Shown piece after piece: positions 2,181 through 26,883 of a stretch of 38,824 nt of DNA (positions are counted from its first letter, which is position 1; the number at the start of each line of letters is the position of its first letter). The stretch lies in the IMG/VR virus record IMGVR_UViG_3300037231_000218, positions 1-38,824 of that record, one strand, 5' to 3'. This stretch comes from a virus. Made by a program: the position numbers and the translations under genes. Below the pieces are notes generated by a model. The model ran no database searches, was not told the origin of the DNA, and was given only the letters and a program-made list of their open reading frames with translations.

Positions 2181-3143
2181 TCATACGGGTGGTAAAGGTG
2201 GGGCTGGTGCGGTGCTGAGGTAGGCTGCGCCGTAGCCGCCGGCGTCGCCGGGACTCATGGGGTATTCACCGGGGGGATCGTTGATGGGTTCGGTGATGGT
2301 GATTTGGTTGGTGATGGGAGTGGTGATGCCAAAACCGGCCGTTATGGGCTGGCCTGGGGTGTAGGTGGATGTGGTTTTGCTTTGGAGGGGGACGGGGGTG
2401 CGGCAGATGGTCTTGGCCACCTGGCAGTAAATATCGAATGCATCGTTCCCGCCGGCGCCGCCGTCGATACCGAAATAGCCGTTGGCGCCCAGGGCAAAGG
2501 TGTTGGGGAGGATTCCTTCGGTGAAATCCCAGGAGCCGATGTTGTTGGTGTAAATGACTTCGCCGTCAGCGGGGTTTCCAAAGAGGGGTGGTTTATAAAA
2601 AACCCACATGACCTGGGTGGAATGAGCATAAGCGGCGGATTCGGAGGCGTAGCAGAGTTGCATTTGGACGGTGGCCGCGCCGGGTGACGGGGTGACGGAA
2701 TAGCTGCCGCCGAATTGGACCATTCCGAGCAAGGCGAGCGCGCGGTTGTTGGCATCGGAAATGGTGTATGGGTTGGACAGGGTATTGATGATCCATCGCG
2801 GGCCATCCGGCCCCCAGCCCGACACTTCGCCGGTTGTGGTGAGGTTGCCGAAATTATCATAGGTCTCGGTTGTGGTCCCAACCAGCGTGCCTTGGTAGAA
2901 CCATTGGATAGTGTTGGTCAAATAGATGGTGTCGGGGATTTGGGTCAGATTTAAAATGACATTCCCGAGGGGGTTGGGGACGACTTCGTTAGCGCCAGGG
3001 GTTTCGGGGTCGTTGGTGGGGACGACTCCGATCCAGCCCATGTTGAAGAGGACGAAGGCAATGACGCATTGGCTGTCGCTAGCACCGCCATTGACGACGG
3101 TATTACGACCGCAACCGCAGCCTCCAAACATTAGAGCGCTCAT
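2181..3143 (-). CDS. Late structural protein of unknown function (last gene of late operon)
   Basis: This 320-residue protein is not recognised. It opens with a cysteine/glycine cluster (GGCGCG near residues 7-12), continues as a Gly/Thr/Asn/Pro-rich, probably beta-rich chain and ends APAPPLPPV. Its ATG overlaps the stop of the upstream tail gene in an ATGA (3140-3143), so translation is probably coupled to it. Position at the distal end of the tail module, downstream of the tape measure and hub-like genes, suggests a tail-tip or receptor-binding component. The N-terminal cysteines could bind metal or form disulphides; no signal peptide is seen. Confidence 0.7.
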   Translation of the reverse strand: MSALMFGGCGCGRNTVVNGGASDSQCVIAFVLFNMGWIGVVPTNDPETPGANEVVPNPLGNVILNLTQIPDTIYLTNTIQWFYQGTLVGTTTETYDNFGNLTTTGEVSGWGPDGPRWIINTLSNPYTISDANNRALALLGMVQFGGSYSVTPSPGAATVQMQLCYASESAAYAHSTQVMWVFYKPPLFGNPADGEVIYTNNIGSWDFTEGILPNTFALGANGYFGIDGGAGGNDAFDIYCQVAKTICRTPVPLQSKTTSTYTPGQPITAGFGITTPITNQITITEPINDPPGEYPMSPGDAGGYGAAYLSTAPAPPLPPV

Positions 3144-5302
3144 GCCGTGTCTCCTTCACCTTGATAAATTCCGCTGGTGAGGGCGAGCAAGGTGCGTTGC
3201 TTCAGGACGCCGTTGACGCTGACGCAGACTTTTTGTTCCTGGATCGTGAGCTGATGCCAATTGCCGTCGCTGCCTTTGGCCTTGCGCGGATCGATGACGA
3301 CGGTGGGGCTCCAATTGGGCGGGCTTTGGCTGATGGCGCCGGTTGTGCCGTCCTGGACAATAAATGGATCAATGCCGTAGACAGCGGAGGGATTACTGGC
3401 GACGACGTGGACTTGATCGTGTCCTTTGCCGGACTGGGCGGCGTGGGCGTGGGTTTTGCGGGTGGCGACGATGGTGCCACCGCCTTGCTTGAGCTGGCCA
3501 CCGAATAGGTAGGCGATGTCCACGCTGGTGACGCGGTAGCGGGTGGCGCGGATGGCGTCAATGAGTTCATGGCCGGTGAGATGGAGCGGTGCACCGAATT
3601 GGACGCTGGTGACGCCGGTGGCGATATCACCGGCGATGCGTTGGACGACGGCGTTGACGTTGGTCCAATTGACGGTGCCAGCGGTTTTAAAATTGAGGCA
3701 GTTTTTGCGGCTGATGGAAATGTTTGAGCCCAGGACCGCTTCGACGTTGGTGAAGTTGCCTTCGAGAGCGAGGTTTTGCCAGCAGGTCCACATTGCTTGG
3801 GCGAGGCCGACGGGAATGGTTTCGGCGGTTTGCTGGATGGTGTTGGTGGTTTCGTTGAACTGAGTGCTGAGGCCGTAGGTGTTTAGATTGACGACGGTGA
3901 AATCCTGGCTGAGGGGAATGATATCGACGGCATTCGGAACACCTTGTCCTTTAGAGCGGACGACTTGCGCATGGGCGGTGGCCTGGACGCGTTGGGCGAT
4001 GACGGGAACGCTCGTGTTGCCAATTTTGGTGGTGATCCAATCGGCCCAGGCGCCATCCGTGATGGCGAAGGTGCAGAGTGGATTATAGGGGACAAGACTG
4101 TAGGACCCGTCTTGGGCCTGGTTCCATTCATCGATGGTGACAATGGCGGGATTGGGAATACCGGGATAATTGTTTAGAATGGTGACGCTGATGATGTCGG
4201 GATCATTCAAATCTGGTTTCCAGTGGTTCCAGCCGATGACCTGGTCAAAACCAGAGAGTCCGTCGATAATAAATGGCAGGCTGGCAAAACTGGCAGACTG
4301 ACTGGTGGCGGTGACTTTCGCGCCGCCAAGATCGCAGAACAAATCCACGCCGGTGAATTGGGCTTCGACGCCGGCGGGAACGGGATTGGGATAGAGGTCC
4401 TCAAAGATGCTGAGGTAGGTGCCGCTGGGTTCGCTGTTGGTTTGATCGTAGCTGATGCTGACGTAGCTTTTTTGCCAATCGGGACGTTCGGAAATTTTTA
4501 CGCGTTCAGTGATGGTGATATCGGTGAGGTCAATCAACAGCGGGGTCAGCGAAGCTATTTTAAGGAAATGGACCGTGGGAAACGGCGTGGTGGTATAATC
4601 CCAATGCATCACAAAATCGGGTTCCAGACGGAACATTTTTTTGATTACGTCCGCGCAGGTAATGCCTTTTTGAAAATCGGAAAAAGGAAGGATGGCCGGA
4701 TCGATCTGGCCGATGTTGATCGGCGCTCCATTCAGGATGGCCCATTCAAGCGCGTCTTCGATCTGCTGGCCCGTAGTGGCATAAGCCCAGCCGAAGGGTT
4801 CATTGACTTCAATGGGCGGTGCGCCGGGGGCCGGGTTGAAGCCTGGCGGAGGCACAAATAAAATATTGAGAATGACGCGGGGACTGCTGTAGGTGGTATA
4901 GGTTTCCGGCTCTGGATTGCCGGTGCCAGGATAATTAGCAAATGTCCCGACGGTGTAGCGTTGCTGATAAATTTTGTTTACGAGATACCACCAGGGATTG
5001 ACGAGGCGGCCGAGATGGTTCTGTTCGCCTGGCTGGCCGTCGCGCGTCCATGGTTCAATGCGGCCGAAGAAGCGGCGGACGCCAGTGGGATCGATCAAGG
5101 CTAGCAACGTGCCGTAAGGCCAGAGCTCGGCGGCGTCAATGGCGAGTCCGCCGACGGTGAAGGTCATCACATCGGCAGCCATGTTGTTCAGGTCATATTG
5201 CGCACTGTCGATGCCGAGGGAGGCGAGTGTCTGTGTGGCGGCTGCGGCTGATCCGTCCGGGTTAAGTTGTTGCAGTGACCATTGGTTTGAAGGTTGGATC
5301 AT
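3140..5302 (-). CDS. Putative tail-tip / baseplate hub protein
   Basis: This 720-residue protein lies directly downstream of the tape measure gene. Its N-terminal about 130 residues (GTLLALIDPTGVRRFFGRIEP, then NPWWYLVNKIYQQRY) have the look of tail hub or distal tail proteins: short beta-strands with a conserved F-x-G-R-I turn. The rest is Thr/Asn/Ile-rich and probably beta-structured, with a His/Ala-rich stretch near residue 615 (ATRKTHAHAAQ). The start is supported by GAGGAG about 10 nt upstream of the ATG, one of the few clear Shine-Dalgarno sites in the late arm. Hub assignment rests on position and general character, not on a diagnostic motif. Confidence 0.6.
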   Translation of the reverse strand: MIQPSNQWSLQQLNPDGSAAAATQTLASLGIDSAQYDLNNMAADVMTFTVGGLAIDAAELWPYGTLLALIDPTGVRRFFGRIEPWTRDGQPGEQNHLGRLVNPWWYLVNKIYQQRYTVGTFANYPGTGNPEPETYTTYSSPRVILNILFVPPPGFNPAPGAPPIEVNEPFGWAYATTGQQIEDALEWAILNGAPINIGQIDPAILPFSDFQKGITCADVIKKMFRLEPDFVMHWDYTTTPFPTVHFLKIASLTPLLIDLTDITITERVKISERPDWQKSYVSISYDQTNSEPSGTYLSIFEDLYPNPVPAGVEAQFTGVDLFCDLGGAKVTATSQSASFASLPFIIDGLSGFDQVIGWNHWKPDLNDPDIISVTILNNYPGIPNPAIVTIDEWNQAQDGSYSLVPYNPLCTFAITDGAWADWITTKIGNTSVPVIAQRVQATAHAQVVRSKGQGVPNAVDIIPLSQDFTVVNLNTYGLSTQFNETTNTIQQTAETIPVGLAQAMWTCWQNLALEGNFTNVEAVLGSNISISRKNCLNFKTAGTVNWTNVNAVVQRIAGDIATGVTSVQFGAPLHLTGHELIDAIRATRYRVTSVDIAYLFGGQLKQGGGTIVATRKTHAHAAQSGKGHDQVHVVASNPSAVYGIDPFIVQDGTTGAISQSPPNWSPTVVIDPRKAKGSDGNWHQLTIQEQKVCVSVNGVLKQRTLLALTSGIYQGEGDTA

Positions 5303-5326: not shown

Positions 5327-6829
5327 CTACTGGGGCATGTTGCTGACGTTTTTCAGGCGCGCCACTTGTTGTTTTATTTCTTCGATCTCCTGTTTAAAAC
5401 TCGCGATGTTGGGCTGGATGCCGGCGACTATGGTCCAGAGGTCTTTGTGCGCGCTTAAAATGGCCATGAGGTCTTTAACGGCTTCGAGGGCGGCGAGGGA
5501 GTCTTCCGGTGTGGCTTTGGTGTTTTTGGCGGTTTTAGTGATTTCGTCAACGTCGTGCTTGATCTGCTCATCTTCTTTTGCCTGGGCATCGGTGTCGACG
5601 GTCTGAGTTTTTACAGCGGCGGTTTGTTGTTCGATGGGCCGTGTGGCGGCGATGATGGCGGTGAGCTGTGCGATCTCTTTGGTGAGATCGGCGATGGCCT
5701 TGGTGTTTTCGGTTTGCTGTTGTTCGGCATGGGCGGTGGCGTCTTTTTCTTTTTGTATCGCGGCAGGGTCGTTAGCGGCGCGGGCTTGGGCTTCGCCACG
5801 GCGGAGTAGTTGCATCCGAGCCTGGGCACGTTCAACGGCGAGATCGGCATCGCGTTCGTTCTGGGCCTGGGCGCTGTCGTGGGTGCCGTGGACGCCGAAG
5901 GCTTGCTTGCGAACGGCTTCCTGATTGGCGAGGGCTTCGTCCAATTCTTTTTGGATGTCCGCCTGCAGATCGGTGTCTTTTTTGGTATCGCCGAAGTCGG
6001 CGTTCAGGCCGGCGCGGTGGGCTTCGTCGGCGGTTTCCTTATCGCGGGCGGCTTTGGTGGCGGCGGCGAGGGCGGCGGCCTGGGCTTGGGCATCGGCGAG
6101 GGCTTTTTGATCTTCGGCTACTTTTTTATCCTGGTCGGCTTCGCGGGCGGCCTGCTCATCGGCGATGGCTTTTTTCTCAATGTCGGCGCGGGCTTGGGCA
6201 GCCTGGCCTGGGGTAATTTTACCTGACTCTTCGTCGGCCTGAATTTTGGCGATGGCGAGACCTTTTTGGGCAGAGACGAGTTCGGCGCGGGCGCGTTCGA
6301 TGGCTTCGTCGAGGGCGAGTTCTTGTTTGAGTTTATCGGAGACGGATTGTTCGCCGCTGGCAATGTCAGCGAGCTTGTCAGCATAGCCCTGGGCGGCGGC
6401 GGAAGCATCGCCAAAGACCTTTATTTTATCTTCGATACCGGCAAGGAAATCAGCGTTGGCGGCAGTCTTGGCCATTTCGTCGAGGGCCTGGTTGGTTTCG
6501 GCGATGTAGGATTTCATCTCGACGAAGAGGCCGATGGCGGCGGCAAGGGTGCCACCGATGGGACTGCGCATGACACGGAACGCTTCGCCGAGGCTGGGTG
6601 AAATGCGATCCAGCTCAATGATGATACGGCGCATCTCCGCGCCCTCTTCGTGGAACAGGCGGAATTCTTCCTTGGTATTTTCGGTCTCCTTGCCGAGCTC
6701 CTTGATTTCCGGGGCGGCCTTGCCGGCGGCACCGGCAGTTTTGGACAGGTCGGAATTAGCGGCCTGAGCGCCGGTCCCGTCGTAAGGGGTGGTGATCTTG
6801 ATTTCTAAACTTTTTTGTTCGTCGCTCAT
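5327..6829 (-). CDS. Tail tape measure protein
   Basis: This 500-residue protein is almost wholly alpha-helical by composition (Ala, Lys, Glu, Gln, Asp) with long coiled-coil stretches. The N-terminus (LEIKITTPYDGTGAQ, a short beta start followed by helices) is typical of tape measure proteins. One hydrophobic segment lies near residues 93-112 (GGTLAAAIGLFVEM). If length scales as usual, at about 1.5 Angstrom per residue, the tail would be roughly 75 nm. It is flanked by tail-tip genes downstream. Unusually, exported-protein genes rather than tail chaperones lie just upstream. Confidence 0.75.
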   Translation of the reverse strand: MSDEQKSLEIKITTPYDGTGAQAANSDLSKTAGAAGKAAPEIKELGKETENTKEEFRLFHEEGAEMRRIIIELDRISPSLGEAFRVMRSPIGGTLAAAIGLFVEMKSYIAETNQALDEMAKTAANADFLAGIEDKIKVFGDASAAAQGYADKLADIASGEQSVSDKLKQELALDEAIERARAELVSAQKGLAIAKIQADEESGKITPGQAAQARADIEKKAIADEQAAREADQDKKVAEDQKALADAQAQAAALAAATKAARDKETADEAHRAGLNADFGDTKKDTDLQADIQKELDEALANQEAVRKQAFGVHGTHDSAQAQNERDADLAVERAQARMQLLRRGEAQARAANDPAAIQKEKDATAHAEQQQTENTKAIADLTKEIAQLTAIIAATRPIEQQTAAVKTQTVDTDAQAKEDEQIKHDVDEITKTAKNTKATPEDSLAALEAVKDLMAILSAHKDLWTIVAGIQPNIASFKQEIEEIKQQVARLKNVSNMPQ

Positions 6830-6833
6830 GAAA

Positions 6834-7298
6834 CTATTTGTGAATGGTCAGAATCAATGGGCGTGCCGTATATGAAACCGGCGCACACATCGCGCTCTCG
6901 TCGCCGGCATCGTCAAAGGCATTCGCTGCAAACCAGGTCACCGCTCCTGGCTTCGAAAATATGACCGTGGCGTTGGTCACATCTCCCACCTGCAGGACGC
7001 TCGTCAGATTGGTCGGGGTGGGGCCGGCGTAGAGATCATAGCCGGCCGTCTGGGGATCAGCATCGGGCGACCATGTGAGAACCACTGGTGTGTTTGTGAG
7101 GGTGGCGCGAAAGAATTGCCCGGGATCCTGCGAGCCGATGACGATCTGTCCACCGGTCGGCAGATATCCGACGGGAATCCAAAGTTGAAAATCAATCGTG
7201 CTCTCGACCTCGCACGGCTGGTTCGCCGTCAAGATTTGCGACGGCAGCAGCGTGACGCTGCACCCGATAAGCAAAAGGAATGGGAGGATGAATTTCAT
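6834..7298 (-). CDS. Predicted lipoprotein with FN3-like domain
   Basis: The 154-residue protein starts MKFILPFLLLIGCSV, a short signal peptide with lipobox LIGC (Cys13). Residues about 65-145 resemble a fibronectin type III domain: LTWSPDADPQTAGYDLY, a central N-T-V-F strand and a final AxNAFDDAGDESA strand pair. Its ATG overlaps the stop of the SGNH gene (ATGA at 7295-7298). A lipoprotein between tail genes is odd, since virion parts assemble in the cytoplasm; it may be a host-surface protein made in infected or lysogenic cells. The lipobox call is moderately secure because the charged n-region is only one Lys. Confidence 0.7.
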   Translation of the reverse strand: MKFILPFLLLIGCSVTLLPSQILTANQPCEVESTIDFQLWIPVGYLPTGGQIVIGSQDPGQFFRATLTNTPVVLTWSPDADPQTAGYDLYAGPTPTNLTSVLQVGDVTNATVIFSKPGAVTWFAANAFDDAGDESAMCAPVSYTARPLILTIHK

Positions 7299-9832
7299 TG
7301 CCAGCGCGTGATTGTGAACCAGGTGTTTGTGTTCATCAGCGGCGTGTCGGCCGCAGAATTGACCACTTGATAAACCTGCCAGTTGTATTGGTTGGTTTGA
7401 ACTGTCGTCACTTTAAAATCAAAAATACCGATGTTGTTTGTGACATTGAAAGAATCACAGAAGGCATACCGCCCATTATTTAAAGTGGTGCCCGCACTGA
7501 AGTAGCTCTGGTTCGGTTGATAACCGTTATACCCATCCACAACGTCACTGCCGGAAGTGTAATTGCCGAGGGAAATATAGAATCCGTCAGTGCTGTTCGT
7601 GCATTGACCGCCGATCAAGCCACGAACTTCATAAACACCCGGCGACGCCGGCGATCCGCTCAAATAGAACGACGCGCAGGAATTCGTCACGACCGTGCTG
7701 GTTCCGTTTGTCCAGCCAATGATGTTGGTTGGACAGATGACGCGGATCGTCTGGCCGACTGCAAGGGATTGAATCAGGGAGATAGAAACTCCGTTGGTGG
7801 TCGTGATGCCGAGGGAAAGGTTGTTGCCATTGCCCTGATGAACGCCAGTAAAGCTCGGCGAAATGCCAAAGGCTGAAGACCGTCCACCATAAAGTTGTGC
7901 CTGTAAAATTGGGAACAGTTCGTTCGTGCAAAGTTCCATGTAACCCGCCGGCATAGGATGCACGAAAAGCGGTGATAAGCCGGAAAAGAACAGGTTGGAT
8001 TGAACGACGCACGAACCATTGGTCCCCATCAAGGGGTCTTGATCGTAGGCAACAATCGCGTCCAACAGATTGCTGTTCGCGTAAACGTAGCCATTCATGC
8101 TGGCCCGCGTGGGCACGTTGCTCTCGCCGTTGAACGACGGCAAGGTGCACCAGTCCACGAGGTGTCCTTGCGCATGTTTTAGCGCAACCAGGTTCGTGAA
8201 GTCTTCTTCCCATTGCAATAACGTGCCAGCTTGAAGATTGTTATTCACGCCATCCATGATCACGTCGATTTGCATCCCCGAACCGTAGGGTTTCATGCCG
8301 GAACTCGCCTGCTGAGTCGCAAGAATTGTGGTCGATGTTTGTCCGGGCTGTCCTTGATTGGAAACATTCACGCCAGGAAAAGCGGCGCGGGTGATGCCGT
8401 CAAAATTGGTGGGATACAAACCGATAGTTCCGTAGGTGATGCTATCCCCGATAAAGTTGATCGAAGGACCGCCACCCATGCCGTATTTCTTCATGACGTA
8501 AGCCTGGTAATTCAAGACTGCAGCCGTCGAAGGTGCGTTTGAAGCTGTGATTAAAACTTCTGACATGTCAGCGCAAAGGGAACCCAATTGAGGACTGATG
8601 GTGATGCCAGAGGCCGCCTCGTTGCCGAGCAGGAAAAATGGGTTGGCTACCGTGCCAACAATATGACTCGACGTGTTGGTCCAGCCGTCCTGGACACCGT
8701 TTACGAATTCATCGAGAAAGCCGTTTTGCATTCGGAAGGTCACGACGGTCGGCACGAACTGTGCCGGCGTGGGGCAAATTTGAGCGCTCGATGAGACTTG
8801 ATTGTAGGTCAAAGCGCGTTCGTTTAAGCCGCTCTGGGTATAGAACGGAGATGCCAGGTCGTCAGAGCCGGGAAATCCGTCCTGGAACAAATACTGAATG
8901 ACTCCTGAGCTATTCAATAAAGGCGTCATACCAGCGCCACCATTGTTTAACTTTAAAAGATAGGTGAAGGTTGCGCTCCAGTTCGTGTTCCCAAACATCA
9001 GCGAGTTGGTATAGGCATACCAGACAGTCGGCGCGGCACCCGTCACCGGATTCCAATTTGCTTCCATCGCTAAAGTTGGCCGCGCACCCCACCCATGATT
9101 CGCATCATGCCAGGGAGCAGGCGTGGCTGAGGCGTTAGTCAGCGACCAGCCATTGCCGGAAAAATCTGGGATCGTCAAAATCGTTTGTCCATTCGAAGCC
9201 GACAATTGAGTCATGTCCCACCATGCTGTGGGATTCATGGCCTGCACCTCTGGCGGCATCACGTTGGTGATGCCAAAACCATTCCCGCTGATGATCCCGC
9301 CGACCGACAGAGTGCTTGCGTTGGTCACTGGCCCATTAAAGAGCCAACCGCCATTATCAAACCACCTGGTTTCTACTGCGCTCCCTGCGTTGGCAATCAC
9401 ACCACCGTGGCCAGCTGCCCCGAAAAGGACGATGCCGTAGGTTGGATCAGAATAAAAAGTGTCTTCGCCAGTGAAATTGTGCGCGCCAAACCAGATTCCC
9501 GACTCACCCAGGCTCGGCTCGGCGTAAACAGCATTCGTCGCCAGAACGTAAGTGGTCGCCAGAAAACCAGCGAACTGGTTCGTAACCGCCGGATTCGTTG
9601 ATCCCACTTGGCTGAACACAACGGGAGAATTGGAATTGACGTTTCCGCCCCCGGTGCCGAAGCCGACCGACTTCAGCGTATTGGTCAAATTCGCAATGTT
9701 GGCGGCGAATAAATTCGTCGGCGATTTGAGCACGCCATTGGTATCGGCGAAGAGGCCGACGAAATTGACCTGGGCCGTGACGGACGTCAATAAGGAGGCC
9801 AGGAGAATCGCGCTTAAAAAAAGTTTCTTCAT
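7295..9832 (-). CDS. Exported LamG-like / SGNH-hydrolase protein
   Basis: I start this at the ATG for MKKLFLSAILLASLL (845 residues) because it gives a clean signal peptide ending near VTA-Q; an upstream GTG at 9859 would overlap the previous stop as GTGA but adds nine unremarkable residues. After the signal come a fibre-like N-terminal module (VGLFADTNG), a LamG/concanavalin-like stretch (about 220-445) and an SGNH/GDSL esterase domain: block I GDSIT near 460, block III DGVNNN near 527, and the block V histidine in FVHPMPAGY near 625, where the usual Asp of DxxH is not obvious. The likely role is deacylation of surface glycan. Hairpin CCAGCG-TCA-CGCTGG (9841-9855) lies just before the chosen start. 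Confidence 0.78.
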   Translation of the reverse strand: MKKLFLSAILLASLLTSVTAQVNFVGLFADTNGVLKSPTNLFAANIANLTNTLKSVGFGTGGGNVNSNSPVVFSQVGSTNPAVTNQFAGFLATTYVLATNAVYAEPSLGESGIWFGAHNFTGEDTFYSDPTYGIVLFGAAGHGGVIANAGSAVETRWFDNGGWLFNGPVTNASTLSVGGIISGNGFGITNVMPPEVQAMNPTAWWDMTQLSASNGQTILTIPDFSGNGWSLTNASATPAPWHDANHGWGARPTLAMEANWNPVTGAAPTVWYAYTNSLMFGNTNWSATFTYLLKLNNGGAGMTPLLNSSGVIQYLFQDGFPGSDDLASPFYTQSGLNERALTYNQVSSSAQICPTPAQFVPTVVTFRMQNGFLDEFVNGVQDGWTNTSSHIVGTVANPFFLLGNEAASGITISPQLGSLCADMSEVLITASNAPSTAAVLNYQAYVMKKYGMGGGPSINFIGDSITYGTIGLYPTNFDGITRAAFPGVNVSNQGQPGQTSTTILATQQASSGMKPYGSGMQIDVIMDGVNNNLQAGTLLQWEEDFTNLVALKHAQGHLVDWCTLPSFNGESNVPTRASMNGYVYANSNLLDAIVAYDQDPLMGTNGSCVVQSNLFFSGLSPLFVHPMPAGYMELCTNELFPILQAQLYGGRSSAFGISPSFTGVHQGNGNNLSLGITTTNGVSISLIQSLAVGQTIRVICPTNIIGWTNGTSTVVTNSCASFYLSGSPASPGVYEVRGLIGGQCTNSTDGFYISLGNYTSGSDVVDGYNGYQPNQSYFSAGTTLNNGRYAFCDSFNVTNNIGIFDFKVTTVQTNQYNWQVYQVVNSAADTPLMNTNTWFTITRWQ

Positions 9833-9855
9833 AATTGGGTCCAGCGTCACGCTGG

Positions 9856-11316
9856 TCACTGGGTGTTTTCTTTGACGATGCAGTCAAAATTCAGATTGTA
9901 GGCGTTCGTGGCGAAAGGAATGTAGATCGTGAACCCGCTATTGTTTTTTGAGTTCACCCACCAGGACAAACCGTTTTGCGGCGCGGTCGCTGTGTTCTGA
10001 TCCTGCGGCGTGAGACTGACACTGTAATTGCCATCAGGCATCAGTGGCGTGTTGAAGGCGACGCCAATGCTGGAATAATTGGCGGGCAAGACGGCCGTGA
10101 ACGCTTTGATGGCAGTAAAGCCGGTGATCTGCGCCTGCAGGGTGTTGCTCGAAGTGTTGTTCGCGGTCCACAGATCGTTGCTGACGCTGGCCAAATCAGT
10201 GAGGTCAAGATTGCTGTTGAGGGTGATCTGGGATTGGAGGGCGTTGCTGCCGGTGGTGATTTGCCCCTGCAGATTGTTGGTGGCCGCGATGAATTGGTTG
10301 CCGAGCGTGGTGATCTGGGATTGCAGGCTGTTACTGGTCAGCGTCAGATTGTAATTCCAGATCGCGCTGAGGCCGTTGCTGGTGGCGGTGGTGCTGAACA
10401 GGGTGAAGACATTGGTGCCGCCAATGGTGAGCTGGCCGCCTTCAATGTCCAGGGAGCCGTTCACGAGCATGGCATTCGTGCCAGGGTTGTTGGTATTGAT
10501 GCCGACGCCGCCGGCGGCGTGGACGAGGAATTGATAGTTGGAGGTGGATTCGAATATCCCGGTGGTGCCGTCGGACCAGACGAAGGTATTGTAGTTGTTG
10601 GCGATGGCTTCGGTGCCGGCGGCGAGACTGTCATTCTCGTAGCCATAGGCGTTGCCGACGGCGTTGCTGATGCCGCCGAGGATGATGTTATTATTTCCGG
10701 CGTGAATATAATTGTCGGTGCCCCCGACGATGGTATCGCCGGTGGCAACGTCGATACCGTCGATGGTATTTGCCTGCCCGTTCAGGATCTCTGACCATTG
10801 GGCGTAAACGATGTTGTTCAGGTTGCCGCCGAGAATGCCGTTGCCGATCTGGGCGGTATTAACATTGATGCCGTTGGTGTAGCCGCCGAGGATGAACCCG
10901 CCGGCGCCTCCATAAAGGGCGTTATCCTGGCCACCCAAGAGCGTGTTGTTGATGGTGGCTCCGCCGATGCCGAAGGAATTATTGGTGCCGCCGAGGAGGA
11001 GGTTGTTGGGATTGCCGTTGCCCTGGCTGCCGAGGATGTTGGTCCAGAGGCCCTGAAAGTAATTGCTGGAGGCCCAAGCGACGTTGCTGGCGCTGAGGAA
11101 CAAAGAATTTGTGGCGGAGTTGAACGTCGCGTAATAGACGAAGTTGGAATATCCGTTGGTGCCCCCGACGACCTGGCTAAAGGTGATGGTGAAGCCCGGG
11201 AGGATGGCGTAATTCGAATCGGCGTAAACGCCGTTGTAAACCAGCGCGGAGGCCGGCGAGGCCATTATGCAGAGCAGCGTCAGACCAGCCGCGATTTTTT
11301 TAAAGAGTTTTTTCAT
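9856..11316 (-). CDS. Exported tail-fibre/adhesin-like protein with YadA-type repeats
   Basis: The 486-residue protein begins MKKLFKKIAAGLTLLCIMA and has a clear signal peptide (cleavage near SPASA-L). Residues about 90-260 are short NNxxxGG-type repeats (GGTNNSFGIGG, GGTDNYIHAG, LGGISNAVG) resembling trimeric autotransporter head repeats, followed by FLVHAAGGVGINT, a motif common where fibre shafts begin. About 300-410 is a heptad-like stretch (LQSQITTLGNQF, LQGQITTGSNAL) likely to form a trimeric coiled coil. The N-terminal YNGVYADSN resembles VGLFADTNG in the neighbouring esterase, suggesting a shared module. The family would be a fibre, but the signal peptide argues for export rather than virion assembly. 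Confidence 0.72.
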   Translation of the reverse strand: MKKLFKKIAAGLTLLCIMASPASALVYNGVYADSNYAILPGFTITFSQVVGGTNGYSNFVYYATFNSATNSLFLSASNVAWASSNYFQGLWTNILGSQGNGNPNNLLLGGTNNSFGIGGATINNTLLGGQDNALYGGAGGFILGGYTNGINVNTAQIGNGILGGNLNNIVYAQWSEILNGQANTIDGIDVATGDTIVGGTDNYIHAGNNNIILGGISNAVGNAYGYENDSLAAGTEAIANNYNTFVWSDGTTGIFESTSNYQFLVHAAGGVGINTNNPGTNAMLVNGSLDIEGGQLTIGGTNVFTLFSTTATSNGLSAIWNYNLTLTSNSLQSQITTLGNQFIAATNNLQGQITTGSNALQSQITLNSNLDLTDLASVSNDLWTANNTSSNTLQAQITGFTAIKAFTAVLPANYSSIGVAFNTPLMPDGNYSVSLTPQDQNTATAPQNGLSWWVNSKNNSGFTIYIPFATNAYNLNFDCIVKENTQ

Positions 11317-11319
11317 AAA

Positions 11320-12069
11320 TTAACTGTGGCCGTTTTGGTTGATGGCGAGGACGTATTCGCCGGCTTCAAGTTGAAGGCTCAGATCGCGCCAAAGTCCGTC
11401 CGTGCAAAACAGGGAGAAGATCGCCTGGCCGACGCCGTTGTAGCCGGCCTGGTTGATCGTGGTGATCCAGCCGACGCCGGCGGGACCGGCACCTAGCTGC
11501 AGATCGCGGGTCAAACCATCGCCGCAAATAAAACTCAGCTTCGTGCCTGCCTTGAAATATTGCGGGAGTGTTGGCACGCCCTGGGGAATGCCGGAGTCCT
11601 GGCCGTTGATGTTGGCGGCGAAGAGGAGAATGTCATCGGCGGCGGCATCGGTGCTGACGCCATAGATCACGATCCAATAGGACGTGTTCGCCGGGGGGAC
11701 GATATTTTGCGCGGAGGGAACGGCCAGGGTGATATGAGCTGAGGCGGCGGTGCTATTGTTCCAGGTCTCAACGGTGGCGGCGGCGTTGAAATTGGCGGCG
11801 ACGATGGAGCCTTGATAATAGATGGTGCCGCTGTGGGGATCGGAAGTGTCCTGAAGGGCGAGGACGATTTCGGAATAAATGGACAGGTCCAACAGGTTGG
11901 CATCGATGAGTTGCTGGAAATAAAAAAGGATCTCGAACTGCAACGCGCTGCCGCTGGGCATGGCGAGGGCGGTGCCGTTGATTAGGTTGGTGACGCCGCT
12001 GCCGCCGAAAGGCTTGCTGGTATCGCAGGCGAACCGGATGCGCTGGGCGTTGAGTTGAATTCCAGCCAT
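11320..12069 (-). CDS. Putative virion protein of unknown function
   Basis: This 249-residue protein has no signal peptide and is not recognised. Composition is beta-rich, with two related C-terminal units (LSFICGDGLTRDLQL and IFSLFCTDGLWRDLSL) that look like an internal duplication of about 45 residues. Each has a Cys-Gly/Thr-Asp-Gly-Leu core. The start follows an AT-rich leader (TTTTAATTT) and lies 3 nt after the preceding stop. Position between the tail tube region and the fibre gene suggests a tail or fibre-attachment component; that is inference. Confidence 0.65.
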   Translation of the reverse strand: MAGIQLNAQRIRFACDTSKPFGGSGVTNLINGTALAMPSGSALQFEILFYFQQLIDANLLDLSIYSEIVLALQDTSDPHSGTIYYQGSIVAANFNAAATVETWNNSTAASAHITLAVPSAQNIVPPANTSYWIVIYGVSTDAAADDILLFAANINGQDSGIPQGVPTLPQYFKAGTKLSFICGDGLTRDLQLGAGPAGVGWITTINQAGYNGVGQAIFSLFCTDGLWRDLSLQLEAGEYVLAINQNGHS

Positions 12070-16104: not shown

Positions 16105-17091
16105 CTAGGGTTGACTCGCGCTGTCGTAGTGCGCGGAGGCCGAATAGATGTTGTTGGTGGCCAGTGCGGGGGTGAGCTGCACTTGCACGGGTCGGCCGTA
16201 ATTTCCGGAGTAAATATCATCGCCGGAAATGTTGAGGATGGTGTTGGTGGTGCCGCCTGGGAATGAGGTGACGGAACCCATGAGGTAGATTTCATCGCCA
16301 ATCAACGGCAGCACGCCGAAGCCGCCGGAACTCACGGCCACCCAACTGACATTGGTGGACGGGAAGCCGACGGGTCCCTGGCCATAAGCGCCGAGGGTGG
16401 TGGTGGAGTTGGTGAGGACGTAGCCGGCGGAATTGGTCCAGTTGTTGGTGCCACTGTTGCCGTAGGACGTGATGGCGCTGGAATAATCCAGGCCGGCGTG
16501 TTGGAGCATGGCGATGGAGCCGATGAGCAGACCGTTGGTGGCGTCAATGACATTGGTAACTGCCGAGGTCGCTGTATTGGTGGCGGCCAATGAATAGGCC
16601 GTGGTGCCGGAGCTGAAGGCGATCACGGCGGTGTTGGTATCCACCCGATAAAACAAACTCACGAGGCGGACCTGTGCGTTTGGATCAGCCGGGAAGATCA
16701 CCGTGGCTGGCGCGGCGGCATTACCGGCGGCGCTGTAGGTATGATAGTTCGGGATGCCGGCATTAGCCAGTTGTTGCAGTGACATTACGGCCGCCGCAAG
16801 AAGGGTCAGCAATGCCAGGTGCCAGGTGCCACCGGCGAGTTTGATTTTGGGGCGATAGACGGCGGTGACTTTTTGATTGGTGACAACCTCGTCGCCATCC
16901 TTGTTGATTTTCTTGATGGGAACTTCAACGGTGATCAACCGGCCATCGTGTTCCTCGCTGACGGCAGTGACTTTTGCCTTGCTGATGAGGAGTGAGTGGG
17001 GCGCGACGTAGTTGACGGGTTCGCCAACTTTAGGGGCCTCAAATTTAATTTCGGGCTTTTTAGCCTCTTTATTTGTTTCGACGGTTTCCAT
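16105..17091 (-). CDS. Head-region protein with internal membrane segment; possible capsid decoration
   Basis: The 328-residue protein directly follows the capsid gene. Residues 1-85 form a charged, probably small beta domain (VGEPVNYVAPHSLLISKAKV ... KVTAVYRPKI). Residues about 91-112 are hydrophobic (HLALLTLLAAAVMSLQQLA, then NA), like a signal peptide or transmembrane helix placed inside the chain. Residues 113-328 are Thr/Ser/Asn/Gly-rich beta sequence like a secreted or decoration protein. It may be a fusion of a small cytoplasmic domain and an exported protein, or an anchored decoration protein. The start follows AT-rich leader GATAATATAT. Function is unknown. Confidence 0.65.
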   Translation of the reverse strand: METVETNKEAKKPEIKFEAPKVGEPVNYVAPHSLLISKAKVTAVSEEHDGRLITVEVPIKKINKDGDEVVTNQKVTAVYRPKIKLAGGTWHLALLTLLAAAVMSLQQLANAGIPNYHTYSAAGNAAAPATVIFPADPNAQVRLVSLFYRVDTNTAVIAFSSGTTAYSLAATNTATSAVTNVIDATNGLLIGSIAMLQHAGLDYSSAITSYGNSGTNNWTNSAGYVLTNSTTTLGAYGQGPVGFPSTNVSWVAVSSGGFGVLPLIGDEIYLMGSVTSFPGGTTNTILNISGDDIYSGNYGRPVQVQLTPALATNNIYSASAHYDSASQP

Positions 17092-17163: not shown

Positions 17164-18666
17164 TCAGGCGGGCGGCAGTTGGAGGGTGGCCATGGCGTCC
17201 ACGGCCATGGCTTCGACGTCGATGCGTTCCAGGCCGCGCATGGCGAGTTCATCGGTGGCGAAGAATACTTCGCGGCTGACTTCGACGCGGGGCTGGCCGC
17301 GTTCGCCGAGATACCAGTAGCTAAGATCGCCGAAGAAGGCGACCAAGGCGTTGGGCTGGGCGTTGCCGGTGTTGGCGGCACTGATGCCGATCCAGTGGAT
17401 GGGCCAGCCGTCGAGGGTGGCGGGTTGGCCATTGCGCGCCGGGATATAAATCTGCGGCGAGCCGATGGTGTTGAACGTCACGAGGAGAGATTCCAGGGAC
17501 GGGTGCATGTAGTAGGCGGCGTTGGTGGTGCCAGTCTGGGCCATGTTGGCGAGGACGGCTGGGTTCACGAGGCCGCGGAGAGCGCGGAAATGATTGACGT
17601 TCAAATCCGTCACCACCGTGTTGCCGGCAGCCGGCTTGATCAGGTAGGCGGGATTGTTGACGCAATAAGTGCCGACGCCTGTGATATTGGCATAGGTGCC
17701 GGTGCCGTCGGCCAGGAACATGGTTTTATCCTCGATGAGCGCGAATTGGCGGGCGATATACCGGGCGAGGAACTGGCCGAGCTGGATGAATGTATCCTCC
17801 TCGATTTCCGTGGGGATGCGGATGAGTCCGCCGACTTTGTTGGCGGTGAAGGTGACCAGTGTGGCTTGGACTTCTTTCTGGCCGATCTGCTGGCTCATGC
17901 CGGCGGTGCCGGCGCCGAGGAAGGCGAAGGAATCCTCACCAGCCTGCAGACGGGGAAGTTTGACAGTGCCGGCGCCGAGCGGGTAAACGGTCGCGAATTG
18001 GCGGGCCTGGCCGTAGGCGAAGACGAGTTCAACGACCTGCGGCATATAGAGAGTGGGCAACGGGATGTCGCCAGAGCTAAGGGCGCCACCGGCTTTTTCG
18101 ACGATGCCGGCGAAGCCGCGGGCTTCGGTCAGGAATTTCTGGCGACTGGCTTCGTTGCTGATCAGCTTCTCCAACATGTTGCCGGTGACGCTGGCTTGAA
18201 GGATGATGTCGGCGGCGACGGCCTTGGCGGCGGTATCGGTGAGGAAGGGAATGCCGCCGACCCAGCGGATGCGGCCTTCGGAGCCAGCCATGGCGTGTTT
18301 CTTCTGGAGTTTTTTAAACTCCTTTTCCAAGCCATCAACACGGCCTTGCTCTGCCTTGAGCAGTTCGGGCAGTTTTTTGATGGCGGCAAAACCACCGTCG
18401 ACTCCGCTGAGGTCTTTCAGTCCGGGAACGAACGCGCCGAGTTCCTTGCAGATATCGCCGAACTCTTTGATTTGTTCCGGCGTGAGCGCGGTAGTGTAGC
18501 AGTGGCCGCGGCGGGGACGGTACATGGCGAACTGGCTGAGTTGCCAGCAGGCGAAGATGCCCCCACAGATGAAGGCGGGGACGCCGAGCAGGAACAGTGA
18601 GAAGCAGAGGACCGCAACGCTGAACAGAGCCAGCAGGTGACGATACGGTTTAAGAAACGATTTCAT
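17164..18666 (-). CDS. Major capsid protein, HK97 fold, with N-terminal hydrophobic hairpin
   Basis: Residues about 165-500 match the HK97-type coat: LPTLYMPQVVELVFAYGQAR, LVTFTANKVGGLIRIPTEIEED, RYIARQFALIEDKTMFLADGT and the C-terminal AFFGDLSYWYLGERG ... DELAMRGLERIDV. Residues about 65-130 are the helical delta/scaffold region, normally removed by the protease encoded upstream. Unusually, residues about 10-45 hold two hydrophobic segments (LLALFSVAVLCFSLFLLG and AFICGGIFACWQLS) resembling a membrane hairpin. The start at 18666 follows the AT-rich leader AAATAAAAAT seen at other late genes. The next Met (18525) would drop the hairpin but has no such leader. Confidence 0.88.
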   Translation of the reverse strand: MKSFLKPYRHLLALFSVAVLCFSLFLLGVPAFICGGIFACWQLSQFAMYRPRRGHCYTTALTPEQIKEFGDICKELGAFVPGLKDLSGVDGGFAAIKKLPELLKAEQGRVDGLEKEFKKLQKKHAMAGSEGRIRWVGGIPFLTDTAAKAVAADIILQASVTGNMLEKLISNEASRQKFLTEARGFAGIVEKAGGALSSGDIPLPTLYMPQVVELVFAYGQARQFATVYPLGAGTVKLPRLQAGEDSFAFLGAGTAGMSQQIGQKEVQATLVTFTANKVGGLIRIPTEIEEDTFIQLGQFLARYIARQFALIEDKTMFLADGTGTYANITGVGTYCVNNPAYLIKPAAGNTVVTDLNVNHFRALRGLVNPAVLANMAQTGTTNAAYYMHPSLESLLVTFNTIGSPQIYIPARNGQPATLDGWPIHWIGISAANTGNAQPNALVAFFGDLSYWYLGERGQPRVEVSREVFFATDELAMRGLERIDVEAMAVDAMATLQLPPA

Positions 18667-18707: not shown

Positions 18708-19394
18708 TCAGTTGCCTCGGAGCATGCGTGCGAGGTTTAACAGGTGCGCGCCATCTACTCCCTGGCCGGGCGCGCCGCCAGTGGCCGGGGGAGTTGCTTC
18801 ACTGCAAAATTGTTTGAGCCAATCGGCGAGGTCGCGGCGTTCGCTCACATTGAGCACGCTCTTGATCTGGTTTCCGATGGTGGCGCCGGGATTGGCCGGG
18901 ACGACGACGAGGGAAATTTCCAAGAGCTCACACTTGGTATAGGTGCGGTCGGGCTGATCATTGGCCGCTCCGTTGGTCCATTCGAGAGGAATGAAGCCGA
19001 CGCTTTGGGATTTAAGGAAACCACCCTTGGCCATTTTATAGGCCATGTTGCCCATGGGGTTATCGGTGCAAAAGCGGACGCGGTTCACGAGCTGGTTGTT
19101 GACGACGTCCACGCTATCGGCGCGGCCCAGGATTTTTCCGATGCTGGAATAATCGTGGCAATCGGGGATGACGGGGTTGGCGCGGAAGTTATCGAGCTGC
19201 CAGCCAGATTGATTGATTTTTTCGTTGTAGCGATCCACGGTGTCATCGCTGCCGACGAAGTCCATGACCGGATCATCGTCGCCGGCTACGGTCTTGAATT
19301 GGCCGGTGAGGCCGGCGCGGAGGCCGGGGGCGCCGGTGTTGAGGGTGCAAATGCGCGCACCAAATTCCTTAAGGAGTTGATCGAGGGTTTTCAT
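18708..19394 (-). CDS. Prohead maturation protease (HK97/U35-type)
   Basis: I start at the ATG for MKTLDQLLKE (228 residues), preceded by AAAACCACC; an upstream extension to 19520 is Pro/Arg-rich and looks non-coding. The catalytic pattern of the serine prohead protease family is present: His80 in PDCHDYS, Ser131 in SQSVGF and the LLEISLVVVPANP strand. It should cleave the delta domain of the capsid protein encoded next. The C-terminal about 45 residues are Gly/Ala/Pro-rich with a helical end. Confidence 0.85.
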   Translation of the reverse strand: MKTLDQLLKEFGARICTLNTGAPGLRAGLTGQFKTVAGDDDPVMDFVGSDDTVDRYNEKINQSGWQLDNFRANPVIPDCHDYSSIGKILGRADSVDVVNNQLVNRVRFCTDNPMGNMAYKMAKGGFLKSQSVGFIPLEWTNGAANDQPDRTYTKCELLEISLVVVPANPGATIGNQIKSVLNVSERRDLADWLKQFCSEATPPATGGAPGQGVDGAHLLNLARMLRGN

Positions 19395-19411
19395 GGTGGT
19401 TTTATCTAATT

Positions 19412-19433
19412 GTGGTTCGACTACGCTCACCAC
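19412..19433. repeat. REP-like inverted repeat between protease and portal genes
   Basis: GTGGT and ACCAC arms enclose TCGACTACGCTC in the 174-nt gap (19395-19568). The TTCGACTACGCTCA core resembles an intergenic motif I recall from many bacterial genomes; that recollection is unverified. Nothing else is evident in this gap. Confidence 0.4.
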
Positions 19434-19568
19434 TGGTTTGATTTTGGTTACCAGAGGGTAAATTTGCCCATTGCAGCGCGCTGGATAGGCGTTGCAGAGG
19501 CGATGTGGGCCGGGTTCCATGGACGGTGGCCAAAAAACAGAGGGGCCTTAAATCGAAGCGTGGTGAAT

Positions 19569-21968
19569 TCATGGCTTGGCTTCCTTCTGCCAGGTCATCA
19601 GGCCGAGGCCGGGAATCTGGTAGGTGACGGATTTTTCGTCTTCGCTTTTCTTTTCGGCGGCGAGTTGGACGCATTGGCAATTAATTATGTTCTCCGGACT
19701 GGCGCCCAGGGAATCGTCGCCGGGAAACATCAGCTCCTCTTCCATCACCACGAAAGGTTCGGTCAGGGGAATGGGATCATCGAGATATGCTTCCTCGGCC
19801 TCGGCATGGGCCGCACGGACGTGGGGACCGTGGCTCGATAACCATGACTTGTATTCAATGCCGGCATCGGTCATGGCCTGATGCCGGGCGTTGTTGTATC
19901 CAATATTAACCTCGGTGCTGGCTACGCGCTTGGCCTCGCTCTTGGTCATGTTGGTGAAAACAGACCGGACGCGGTCGGCGAGCTGGCTGTTACTTTCACC
20001 GGCAGTCACACCTTCTTCCAAAGTCGTGTTGACCTGGTTGCGCACGGTTTGGCCGCATCCCATGATGGTCTGTTTGCGTCCGGCAATGAATTCGATCAAG
20101 CTCTTGGGCGGATATTTCCAGGCATCATCCGGCGCGCCGATCTCGTTGAGCAGCTCTGTGCCGGCGTTTTGAAGCAGGGATTGCCAGGGAGCTTGCAGTT
20201 CGTCGCCCAATGATTGGCCGAAACTATTGGCATTGAAGATGAGGTCAACGAGGGATTTGATCTCGCCCATCCGTCCGGCTGATTTCTCCAGGTGGATTTC
20301 GTTGAGTTTAGCCAGGGCTTTGCCGCGGTATTGGTTCAAGACTTTGGCGGTCTTGCTCTGAAATAAATTGATGGAGGACCGCCGGGCGGCCATGTGTTTT
20401 TCCCAAAGGACCTTGACGTTTGGCTTGCGCACAATGGGAGATGGCGATGTTGCGGCAGATACCTCGTTGAGCAGCTTAGTCATGCGGATGAAGGGATTGC
20501 TCTTGGCCTCATCATCATCGTGATCGGTATCATCCGGCCCCTCGACCTTGCTCGGGGGAGCATTATTCGGATCGTCTTCGGACGGGAGAGGTTCGGTGGG
20601 CGCGCTGGCGTCTTGCAGGTTAAAGGGCAACCAACCCTTCTTATACCATGGACGTTCCGGCAAACCGAGATCGAGCACGACATTGATATCATCCATTGGA
20701 ACGCCCATGCCAAAGAGTTGCTGGGCGCTGGCCAGGCGCGCGCGGCGCTGGGCCTGCATGATCGGCATGCTGTCGATGTCAAACCAGCCGACTAGACCAT
20801 CACCAAAGGTATCGATGATCGGTTGCACCGCCGTTTCGCAGCGATGACAGACAGCGGACACAGTAGATTCAACGAAGCTGCCTTTGATGGCGTCCAGGCT
20901 GCCCCCGGCCCCGCCGTCGTTGACATCCGACGTGAAGCCGGCCAGGGGTTCCGGCACTTTGAAGATGGCGAAGATTTCCTGCCGCAAAAACTTGCGCGTC
21001 TCCAAAAATTGCATGTCCATCATGGACAGACTGGGTTTTTCGACCTTGGCACCACCCCAAAGGAACATGGGCCGATCCGCCGTGCCGGCCTTGCGCTTGC
21101 GCTCACGCAATGCCTGGAGGATGGATGCCTGCTGTTCTTTAGTAGCCTGTTGATCCGTGGTGACAATGACGCCCGTGTCGGCGTTATTTACCCAGAGACC
21201 TTTCTGAAACTGTTCCCCCGCAAAATCGGTCTGGGCCGGGACCAGCGCCACGATGAGCGGCGATAGCCCGCGCCAGTATAGATACGGATTCGGCGTGCGC
21301 GAATAGCACACTTCCGTTGGCAAAAGGATTTCGCTGGGCACGGGCGAGATCAGCGGACTGCCGGTATAACGCCAACCTTCCAACTCGTAGCCAACGACGA
21401 TATGCCAGAACATGTCCGGACAGAGTGCGACCATGTTGGCAATGCGCGGAGCACGGTCGGCGAGATCAACCGTGTTGCCCAGGCGATCTTGTGGCAGAAT
21501 GAAAAATTCGCCCCTCAACGCGTTCCAGGTGACGACCGTCTCCCAGAACAATTGTTTGTTCATGGAGACGTGCGGCCGTTCAAATAAATCCACCACCGGG
21601 CCATCAGCGATGATGGATTCGTTTAATGCGCCACGCACGAAAGCTTTTTGTCTTGGATCGGCAGAGGCCAGGAATGACCGCACTCGCTTGGCTTTTCCTC
21701 CGCCGACTCGGCTGATGCGAAAGGGAATTTGCGCCACGCTCGAAGCCAGGATGGAGACGGCAGTGAAAATCCAGGCGGACTCAGCGTAAGGGTTATAGAG
21801 CTTGGCACCGCGTTGATCCTGATCCAGATCAGTGCCGGATAGGAACGCCGCAATATCGGGCGAGCTCGCGCCCTTGCGGACCTGGTCAGGATATACCCGT
21901 TGCAAAAAGGGATCGGAAGCCTTGATGTGCTCAAGCACGGCGCCGGTGAGTTGGTTGGTTGGTTTCAT
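19569..21968 (-). CDS. Portal protein fused to MuF-type minor head protein
   Basis: The start (MKPTNQLTGA, 799 residues) is set by the ATGA overlap with the terminase stop at 21965-21968. Residues about 55-450 are a portal: YNPYAESAWIFTAVSILASS, the ETVVTWNALRGEFFIL segment, WRGLSPLIVAL, and a helical FLETRKFLRQEIFAIFKVPEPL wing. A Pro/Asp-rich linker (about 455-490) leads to a helical C-terminal half ending in a phage Mu F domain: ASTEVNIGYNNARHQAM, SSHGPHVRAAH and ENIINCQCV. In Mu these are separate proteins (gp29 and gp30). The fusion would couple the DNA-gating ring to the minor head protein in fixed 1:1 ratio. Confidence 0.85.
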   Translation of the reverse strand: MKPTNQLTGAVLEHIKASDPFLQRVYPDQVRKGASSPDIAAFLSGTDLDQDQRGAKLYNPYAESAWIFTAVSILASSVAQIPFRISRVGGGKAKRVRSFLASADPRQKAFVRGALNESIIADGPVVDLFERPHVSMNKQLFWETVVTWNALRGEFFILPQDRLGNTVDLADRAPRIANMVALCPDMFWHIVVGYELEGWRYTGSPLISPVPSEILLPTEVCYSRTPNPYLYWRGLSPLIVALVPAQTDFAGEQFQKGLWVNNADTGVIVTTDQQATKEQQASILQALRERKRKAGTADRPMFLWGGAKVEKPSLSMMDMQFLETRKFLRQEIFAIFKVPEPLAGFTSDVNDGGAGGSLDAIKGSFVESTVSAVCHRCETAVQPIIDTFGDGLVGWFDIDSMPIMQAQRRARLASAQQLFGMGVPMDDINVVLDLGLPERPWYKKGWLPFNLQDASAPTEPLPSEDDPNNAPPSKVEGPDDTDHDDDEAKSNPFIRMTKLLNEVSAATSPSPIVRKPNVKVLWEKHMAARRSSINLFQSKTAKVLNQYRGKALAKLNEIHLEKSAGRMGEIKSLVDLIFNANSFGQSLGDELQAPWQSLLQNAGTELLNEIGAPDDAWKYPPKSLIEFIAGRKQTIMGCGQTVRNQVNTTLEEGVTAGESNSQLADRVRSVFTNMTKSEAKRVASTEVNIGYNNARHQAMTDAGIEYKSWLSSHGPHVRAAHAEAEEAYLDDPIPLTEPFVVMEEELMFPGDDSLGASPENIINCQCVQLAAEKKSEDEKSVTYQIPGLGLMTWQKEAKP

Positions 21969-23482
21969 CCTACAGCAGCTCCCATATAGGTTGCGCCGGC
22001 ATCTGCCTTGGTGGAGAGGCCGCCGCTCCAGGCGATGTCGCAATGGCTGGCGGGGTTAAGGAGGTTGCGACCTTCAGTGAAGCGCCACTTGTTGGCGGCA
22101 AAGATTTTGCGCAGGGCGAAATAATCCTGGGCAATGTCAGGTTCCGATTTTGGAAAAACTTTTTCGGTGGTGGCCAGTTGATTCATGAGCGCGAAGCCCA
22201 TGGCGTGTTTCTCGCTGGCGAAATTGACCTTGGTGAAAATGCCCGGGAATTTCATTTCTGTCTCCCAGCAAATCTGCCGGCCGAGACCGGTTTCATCGCC
22301 AGCGGATTTCAAAGCGGACAAGTGGCGGTGAAAGGTCCAGAGAACGGTCTGGAGGAAATTCCAATCATTGGTGCGGCAGGTGAAGAGGCTGGCCAGTTTG
22401 AAGCGTCCGCCTTGCTTATGATCAATGTAGATGGAGGCCAGGTCCCCCTGCCCGCTAGCGGCGACGTCGAAGCCGAGGCGGTTTTGCGCGGGGGTGCGGA
22501 TCAGTTCGTTGAAGGTGGTGGTGATGAAATTGGCGATACGAGCTTCGCGGGACAGCCGTTGCATTTCATTGTAGTCGCCAAAGGTTTCAGTGATCTGATG
22601 CGCTTCGAGATGGAGCCGGGTGATCTGGTAATCCTGCTGGCAGAGTTCAATCTGCGACCAGGGCACGATGGCCGAGGTGCTGCCGCTGGGATTGCAGTTA
22701 TATGCCTGCTCGTAAATTTCCGGCAGGCGGGCGCGGTTCTTGCAATCCTGGATAAATCCCTCGCGCGTGAAATGGGTGCCTTGAACGGAATTGATTTTTT
22801 CCACCAGGCCGAGGTCCACCGCATCCTGCATGGTGACACGATAGTAACTCCAGCCGCCCTTGCCGGCTTGCGCCTCCTTGGCGAACTGATAGAACAACGT
22901 ATCGGTGCCGTCATGCGCGGACCAGATGCCGATGTCAAAACCCCAGGTGATGCGGCCTTGGGCGGTCTCCCATAATTTTTCGGCGTTCTGATGCTTGGCA
23001 AATTCATCCAGGCCGACGTCGCCGCCGAAGACGGCCATCGCGTAGGGATTAGAGCTGAAGGCCATGATGCGCGACCCGTTGTCGAACTTCATGTAGTTGA
23101 ATTTTATTTCGGTGGTGAACTTCTGACCGCGCTCATCGATGCCTTCAATCTTTTGCGAGTCTTCCCCGCGTGAAACGATGGACTTGGCAAAATTGAAAAT
23201 GTCCGCGAACTCGGAACACGTCTTCATGTATTCCACGGCGCTGGCCTGGTCCTTGGTGGCGAAGAGATAGTCGCGGTTTTTATTCAGCAGCCGTTTGCGC
23301 ACGTTCTTGAACGCGTCGGCATAGGTCCAGCCGATGCGGACTGATTTCTCGGCGAAGCGCATCCGCGACTCGTCATTGATCCACCTCATTTGATATGGGA
23401 GGAAATAACGCGAAACTTTCGCGTCGCTGCTCTCGACGTTCAATGCTGGTAAAATTGCGGCCATGATAATTGCCCAGATCAT
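21965..23482 (-). CDS. Terminase large subunit (Mu gp28-like)
   Basis: The 505-residue protein has the two terminase domains. The ATPase part shows an atypical Walker A region near 44-55 (AEKSVRIGWTYA), as in Mu gp28-type proteins, and Walker B GGDVGLDEFA with Asp159-Glu160. The nuclease part begins at RLGFDVAASGQGD (Asp339), and the C-terminal HCDIAWSGGLSTKAD holds a likely third acidic residue. It should package DNA by a headful mechanism. The start overlaps the small subunit stop (ATGA, 23479-23482). An ATG six codons later is an alternative. Confidence 0.85.
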   Translation of the reverse strand: MIWAIIMAAILPALNVESSDAKVSRYFLPYQMRWINDESRMRFAEKSVRIGWTYADAFKNVRKRLLNKNRDYLFATKDQASAVEYMKTCSEFADIFNFAKSIVSRGEDSQKIEGIDERGQKFTTEIKFNYMKFDNGSRIMAFSSNPYAMAVFGGDVGLDEFAKHQNAEKLWETAQGRITWGFDIGIWSAHDGTDTLFYQFAKEAQAGKGGWSYYRVTMQDAVDLGLVEKINSVQGTHFTREGFIQDCKNRARLPEIYEQAYNCNPSGSTSAIVPWSQIELCQQDYQITRLHLEAHQITETFGDYNEMQRLSREARIANFITTTFNELIRTPAQNRLGFDVAASGQGDLASIYIDHKQGGRFKLASLFTCRTNDWNFLQTVLWTFHRHLSALKSAGDETGLGRQICWETEMKFPGIFTKVNFASEKHAMGFALMNQLATTEKVFPKSEPDIAQDYFALRKIFAANKWRFTEGRNLLNPASHCDIAWSGGLSTKADAGATYMGAAVG

Positions 23483-26837: not shown

Positions 26838-26883
26838 GGGATGATTTGGGTTGAGGTGGAATAAACAGGGACGTATCCACAAA

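Follow-up and report, generated by a model that had tools for sequence, protein, structure and literature searches.

Predicted export signals on fibre-type tail proteins of a Mu-like prophage and its relatives in Verrucomicrobiota

Tailed viruses normally build their fibres and tailspikes inside the cell, in the cytoplasm, so export signals on such parts are odd. SGNH-esterase spikes are known in tailed phages, G7C gp63.1 being one example, and because particles in extracts can acquire P22 tailspikes or T4 fibres, export would be no bar to virion membership. To our knowledge no tailed phage has exported fibres, and the literature searched held no report of signal peptides on the tail fibres of tailed phages, which is weak evidence. 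Virion proteins with cleaved leader peptides have been described in inoviruses, where the coat proteins pIII and pVIII are assembled at the membrane (PMC3185693). In T4, prohead assembly takes place on the inner membrane with membrane-associated heads, and according to the same 2011 review T4 was the sole phage for which an association between prohead and membrane had been shown (PMC3185693). The literature searched likewise described no HK97 capsid protein with a membrane hairpin, which is again weak evidence, and the search returned no experimental work on virion assembly in Verrucomicrobiota phages.

The window analysed here, which is the whole stretch of 38,824 nucleotides, carries a Mu-like prophage, recognised by a DDE transposase together with Phage_portal, Phage_Mu_F and Phage_capsid matches (an HK97 head), with its tail genes on the minus strand (Table 1). 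The labels "tube" and "tape measure" for the genes flanking the cassette described below reflect position and composition, with no family match. A sensor histidine-kinase/receiver/Hpt protein (HATPase, receiver and Hpt domains) is encoded in bases 1-1764, which are probably host DNA at the prophage end. Relatives of the capsid protein in named genomes all belong to Verrucomicrobiota (Pedosphaera and Limisphaerales MAGs), and the capsid family is present in 28 of 293 genomes drawn from that order and in 1 of 388 drawn across the phylum. Elsewhere in the window, a Class 3 lipase lies in the lysis region (25332-26183; Pfam E=2e-31), as an unusual lysis or cargo enzyme, and an outer-membrane-like protein with a signal (26226-26882) and a lipoprotein (27153-27593), both exported-looking, are encoded upstream of the terminase.

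Table 1. Features of the prophage in the window, with positions counted from its first base
Feature	Position	Strand	Basis and remarks
DDE transposase	30613-33030		phrog_310, E=3e-28
Portal fused to Mu F	19569-22043		Phage_portal, Phage_Mu_F
Prohead protease	18708-19520	minus	Peptidase_S78
HK97-fold major capsid protein	17164-18666	minus	Pfam Phage_capsid; N-terminal hydrophobic hairpin at about residues 8-48
Post-capsid gene	16105-17091	minus	SH3/tudor-like N-domain (cytosolic), TM helix at residues 89-111 (about 16759-16827), beta C-domain
Non-exported pre-cassette tail protein	11320-12069	minus	homologous in L008, L003, L017
Fibre-type protein 1, 486 aa	9856-11316	minus	Sec signal, residues 1-24 (about 11245-11316)
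Fibre/spike-type protein 2, 845 aa from ATG 9832	7295-9832	minus	Sec signal, residues 1-20 (about 9773-9832)
Small predicted lipoprotein, 154 aa	6834-7298	minus	lipobox LLIG^C, Cys13; FN3-like look
Coiled-coil protein, putative tape measure	5327-6829	minus	position and composition; no export signal
Putative tail hub	3140-5302	minus	no export signal
Distal tail protein, N-terminal Cys cluster	2181-3143	minus	no signal; possible ordinary receptor-binding protein

The cassette consists of three consecutive late genes, at the place given in an earlier sequence-only reading of this DNA (9856-11316, 7295-9859 and 6834-7298, minus strand), with the ATG at 9832 being the better start of the second ORF (7295-9859). 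Export signals were scored by a simple signal-peptide rule (n-, h- and c-regions, with a -3,-1 cleavage site or a lipobox), from which cleavage is predicted. This rule flags all three cassette genes, with cuts at ...SPASA^LVYNG and ...TSVTA^QVNF and a lipobox LLIG^C, which agrees with that reading in giving the first two proteins ordinary Sec signals with predicted cleavage and the third a lipobox. Of the 15 further virion proteins of the window that were tested, the rule flags a single one, the capsid protein, at its hydrophobic N-terminus, and in the control phages Mu, B3, D3112 and lambda the rule flags 3 of 84 virion-module proteins, one of which is Lom, a true export protein. The fibre and tailspike proteins of crAss001 show no signal. 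Among random sequences 2.8% pass the signal rule and a lipobox arises at 0.08%, while three consecutive flagged genes would be expected by chance at about 2e-5.

Two trivial origins were considered. A chance origin of the three signals was rejected on the rates in control phages and random sequences, and a start-codon artefact was rejected because independent relatives conserve the signals. As far as sequence can tell, the export signals of the cassette are real and not a product of chance.

Protein 1 is laid out as a Sec signal, a GVYADSNxxILPG module, YadA-like LxGGxxN repeats (approximately residues 92-240), a "FLVHAAGGVGINTNNP" module and a conserved C-terminal tip domain. The motif behind its signal, LVYNGVYADSN (11212-11244, minus strand), places NGVYADSN just past the cut, and its counterpart in protein 2, QVNFVGLFADTN (9737-9772, minus strand), places VGLFADTN in the same position. 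This N-terminal motif recurs in both fibre genes of the relative L008, which bears out the proposal of a common module in the first two proteins. Since many of the cleavage sites are of AxA type and conserved modules start right behind them, the idea that simple signals stay uncleaved and serve to attach the proteins to the virion is disfavoured. Protein 1 and its L008 counterpart share their N- and C-modules and have different centres, as in fibre mosaicism.

The domain names given to the cassette proteins fared unevenly. Protein 1 of the window has no Pfam match to YadA, though its LxGGxxN repeats are clear and the syntenic L003 protein matches YadA_head (E=1e-7); in the Pfam search it also gave no match to the YadA C-terminal membrane anchor barrel, its C-terminus being the tip domain common to L008. 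In protein 2, the SGNH hydrolase domain (approximately 7940-8455) is recovered above cutoff by Pfam Lipase_GDSL_2 (E=7.8e-9), with the Ser block (GDSI at 471) and the Asn block present. The catalytic Asp of the DxxH motif is absent (LFVH instead), so activity is uncertain; the SGNH proteins of L007 and L054 keep Asp-x-x-His (DTVH and DGVH). "LamG" for protein 2 and "FN3" for the third protein found no profile match in the cassette proteins and remain visual guesses. No match to known fibre families was found for the window cassette proteins, for which the relatives give weak PHROG matches and classic motifs instead; tblastn searches of 50,697 phage records with the hub and the two fibres had no matches, scans of close relatives with the three cassette proteins and the hub gave no matches, and PDB sequence searches with fibres 1 and 2 were empty. 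AlphaFold modelled the fibre N-domain poorly (pLDDT 50), and this model was not used.

Relatives were reached through searches with the capsid protein and not with the cassette proteins. In the Limisphaerales/Pedosphaera clade, export-type N-termini are found on fibre-type proteins at the same slot, which has small tail genes on one side and the tape-measure-like gene on the other. In the ten loci covered on both sides of this slot (the window, L003, L008, L017, L022, L023, L024, L056, L108 and L109), all 13 large proteins there start with an export-type segment, ten having simple signals and three, in the relatives L024, L108 and L109, having two hydrophobic stretches in place of a clean signal. 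The contents of the slot vary in the manner of tail fibres, with YadA-type repeats in the window, L003 and L022, an SGNH hydrolase in the window and, by eye, in L056 and L013, and a possible beta-helix spike in L023; exported or membrane-anchored small genes occupy the place of the small lipoprotein in L003, L023 and L024. Signal-bearing fibres are also found at a second site at the right end (L028, L030, L032, L056, L108 and L109) and at a third directly after the capsid gene (L007, L021, L054, L058, L064-L066, L071 and L114), and the trait extends to relatives with diverged heads.

In these same contigs, none of 151 homologs of TerS, TerL, portal, protease, connector, tail (tube and tape-measure) and hub proteins passes the rule. 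The earlier remark that such signals are unexpected in a tail module is right. Taken with the flagged fibres, this confines the signal to fibre-type proteins, the post-capsid protein and the capsid hairpin. The rule is passed by 32 of 33 listed fibre proteins, a list partly assembled by eye with start codons partly chosen by eye, so that firmer ground is given by the 13 slot proteins and by the comparison within genomes. The observation is sound, and the cassette is not an isolated one: it belongs to a family-wide fibre trait at three positions, joined by a head-module protein.

Several of the relatives tie these signals to recognisable fibre sequences. In L109 the signal of the right-end protein is followed by NVFIGTTPNDGTGDTLPVAFTKLNYN, which we take to be a classic phage-fibre N-terminus, and in L028 it is followed by a weak match to phrog_677, a tail-fibre connector (E=0.014). 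L058 carries NKGQTNGYPALDGSAHVPTTQLGSGTAGTNTFLRGDGAWV, another set of fibre motifs, and L064 has weak tail-fibre PHROG matches. It appears very improbable that the signals are functionless remnants of fibre modules acquired from secreted host proteins, a view for which the central module that protein 1 shares with host proteins would speak. Several lineages keep a signal in all their fibre-type proteins, with signal sequences that are unrelated, even ahead of a phage-specific N-domain, and a signal-bearing fibre gene is under purifying selection (dN/dS 0.15).

Three short islands, L064 1-3996, L065 47-4131 and L066 1-4160 (G495, G409 and G465), consist of protease, capsid, signal-bearing fibre and head-tail connector genes with no detectable portal, terminase or tail. 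Comparison of L064 with L065 indicates purifying selection (dN/dS 0.10-0.15), and the islands are possibly a maintained capsid remnant or satellite.

The reading preferred here, to which we give about even confidence, is that the cassette encodes exported tail fibres or tailspikes, which would bind receptors and deacylate glycans and come together with the virion at lysis. Its products would be a YadA-like trimer-type fibre, an SGNH-esterase spike and a small lipoprotein, and the Mu-like prophage would be one of Limisphaerales-type Verrucomicrobiota. These proteins would be made late in infection, alongside those of the virion genes, and routed through Sec, their signals would be cut, and they would fold outside the cytoplasm. 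They would most probably join finished particles when lysis breaches the inner membrane, as attachment of fibres is usually the final step of assembly and needs no energy. Before lysis, the esterase and fibres would be correctly placed to modify the surface glycans of the host itself, and the putative esterase may strip receptors from the producing cell.

The main competing explanation is that the exported proteins stay off the virion, as adhesins and esterases on or from the infected cell that strip or mask surface glycans, preventing superinfection as well as re-adsorption to debris. The lipobox and the clean Sec signals would suit such a role, an SGNH esterase recurs in exported-type proteins (the window, L007 and L054), and lambda Lom is a precedent for an exported protein among tail genes. 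In addition, the YadA-like centre of protein 1 is also found in host proteins of 71 of the 293 genomes of the order, at least one of which has its own signal (L091), and this makes an exported non-virion role plausible. A separate distal tail protein with no signal (2181-3143, with longer counterparts) occurs in all genomes read at their right end and could be the true receptor-binding protein. Because of that protein and the host-shared YadA-like centre, surface use by infected cells is kept as a serious rival, which we rate as less likely than the preferred reading. It is opposed by the fibre N-modules, classic fibre motifs and fibre mosaicism, by signals at three different fibre slots, and by the rarity in host genomes of the fibre N-domain A5, which occurs in 1 of 388 genomes of the phylum draw (beside a capsid gene) and in 15 of 293 of the order, several of these being shown prophages. 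Counted without correction for relatedness, the A5 N-domain (10 loci) and the non-exported pre-cassette tail protein (4 loci) are perfectly mutually exclusive, as if a docking partner had been swapped.

Gene arrangement bears on this point as well, because the cassette is part of a tightly packed late operon, beside tail genes and in the same slot in relatives, and no promoter-like site was found directly upstream of it, so that it would have no promoter of its own. For this reason display by a quiet lysogen, one form of the surface system first proposed, is not favoured, and display or secretion by the infected cell is what survives of that proposal. As a separate observation, the distal tail protein has N-terminal cysteine clusters (CGCGRN, CRCQ, CGCRC, CCCC and CCAKC; window 2181-3143, L028 2987, L030 3594, L031 5029 and L032 3574) that possibly bind metal.

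On the head side, the HK97-type capsid N-terminus of the window and relatives has a double hydrophobic stretch and a WQLxQxAMS[KR] signature ahead of a scaffold-like region. The post-capsid gene product is predicted to be exported or membrane-anchored, and of its 17 homologs 12 have a simple Sec signal. A soluble SH3/tudor-like domain, which is separate in L021, L023, L024 and L026, is fused to the front of the post-capsid protein in the window, L002, L008 and L011, where the signal has become an internal TM helix. A structure model of this protein (pLDDT 68, pTM 0.51) gave no confident PDB match. It could be argued that the hydrophobic N-termini are anchors that gather the capsid protein (by its hairpin), the post-capsid protein (by its TM helix) and the fibres at the inner membrane and are later cut or discarded, which would make full export of the fibres unnecessary. 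The hairpin is conserved in 19 of 19 aligned capsid proteins, with mere hydrophobicity kept in several diverged ones, the post-capsid protein combines a cytosolic domain, a TM helix and a beta domain, and three fibres have two hydrophobic stretches. We nevertheless hold this to be improbable, as the fibre signals resemble ordinary SPase I signals with AxA sites, the post-capsid signal is mostly a simple Sec signal, and other diverged capsids with no hairpin (for example L058 and L064) are still accompanied by exported-type fibres. If exported fibres that dock at lysis are combined with the head-side features, the particle might be built across the inner membrane, with heads on a membrane-anchored capsid protein, an exported capsid partner opposite, and periplasm-folded fibres attached when the membrane opens; this is doubtful, and would be a possible route of tailed-phage assembly that has not been described before.

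The clade-wide fibre signal would mean either a different order of assembly, in which fibres reach the virion from the periplasmic side at lysis, or a surface system of infected cells that derives from fibres. Both readings are testable and both concern Verrucomicrobiota phages, and the annotation rule by which a signal peptide means that a protein is not a virion protein may be unsafe.

Compared with known systems, the cassette proteins are like the tail fibres and tailspikes of Mu-like and other tailed phages in their late-operon position, conserved ends and variable centre, YadA-like and SGNH content, and the fibre motifs of their relatives, while they differ from the fibres of Mu, B3, D3112, lambda and crAss001, none of which is signal-bearing as far as annotated, in having Sec signals. 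Like lambda Lom-type export proteins (morons), they are phage-encoded, have signal peptides and lie among tail genes, whereas Lom is a single outer-membrane protein and here there are several fibre-type proteins at three slots with shared phage-specific N-domains; these fibre modules and the absence of an upstream promoter-like site argue against a Lom-type moron. Inoviruses are filamentous and extruded from living cells, unlike the HK97-fold tailed phage described here, and in T4, with which the capsid hairpin may be compared, the membrane link is a separate chaperone and not a hydrophobic hairpin on the capsid protein itself. The secreted YadA-like proteins of the hosts share the repeat module, at least one of them with a signal peptide, and lie outside the virion operon as far as seen, without the phage N-modules and tip domain. 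On the preferred reading, the cassette encodes tail fibres or tailspikes of a known kind, on which the export signals would be a new feature.
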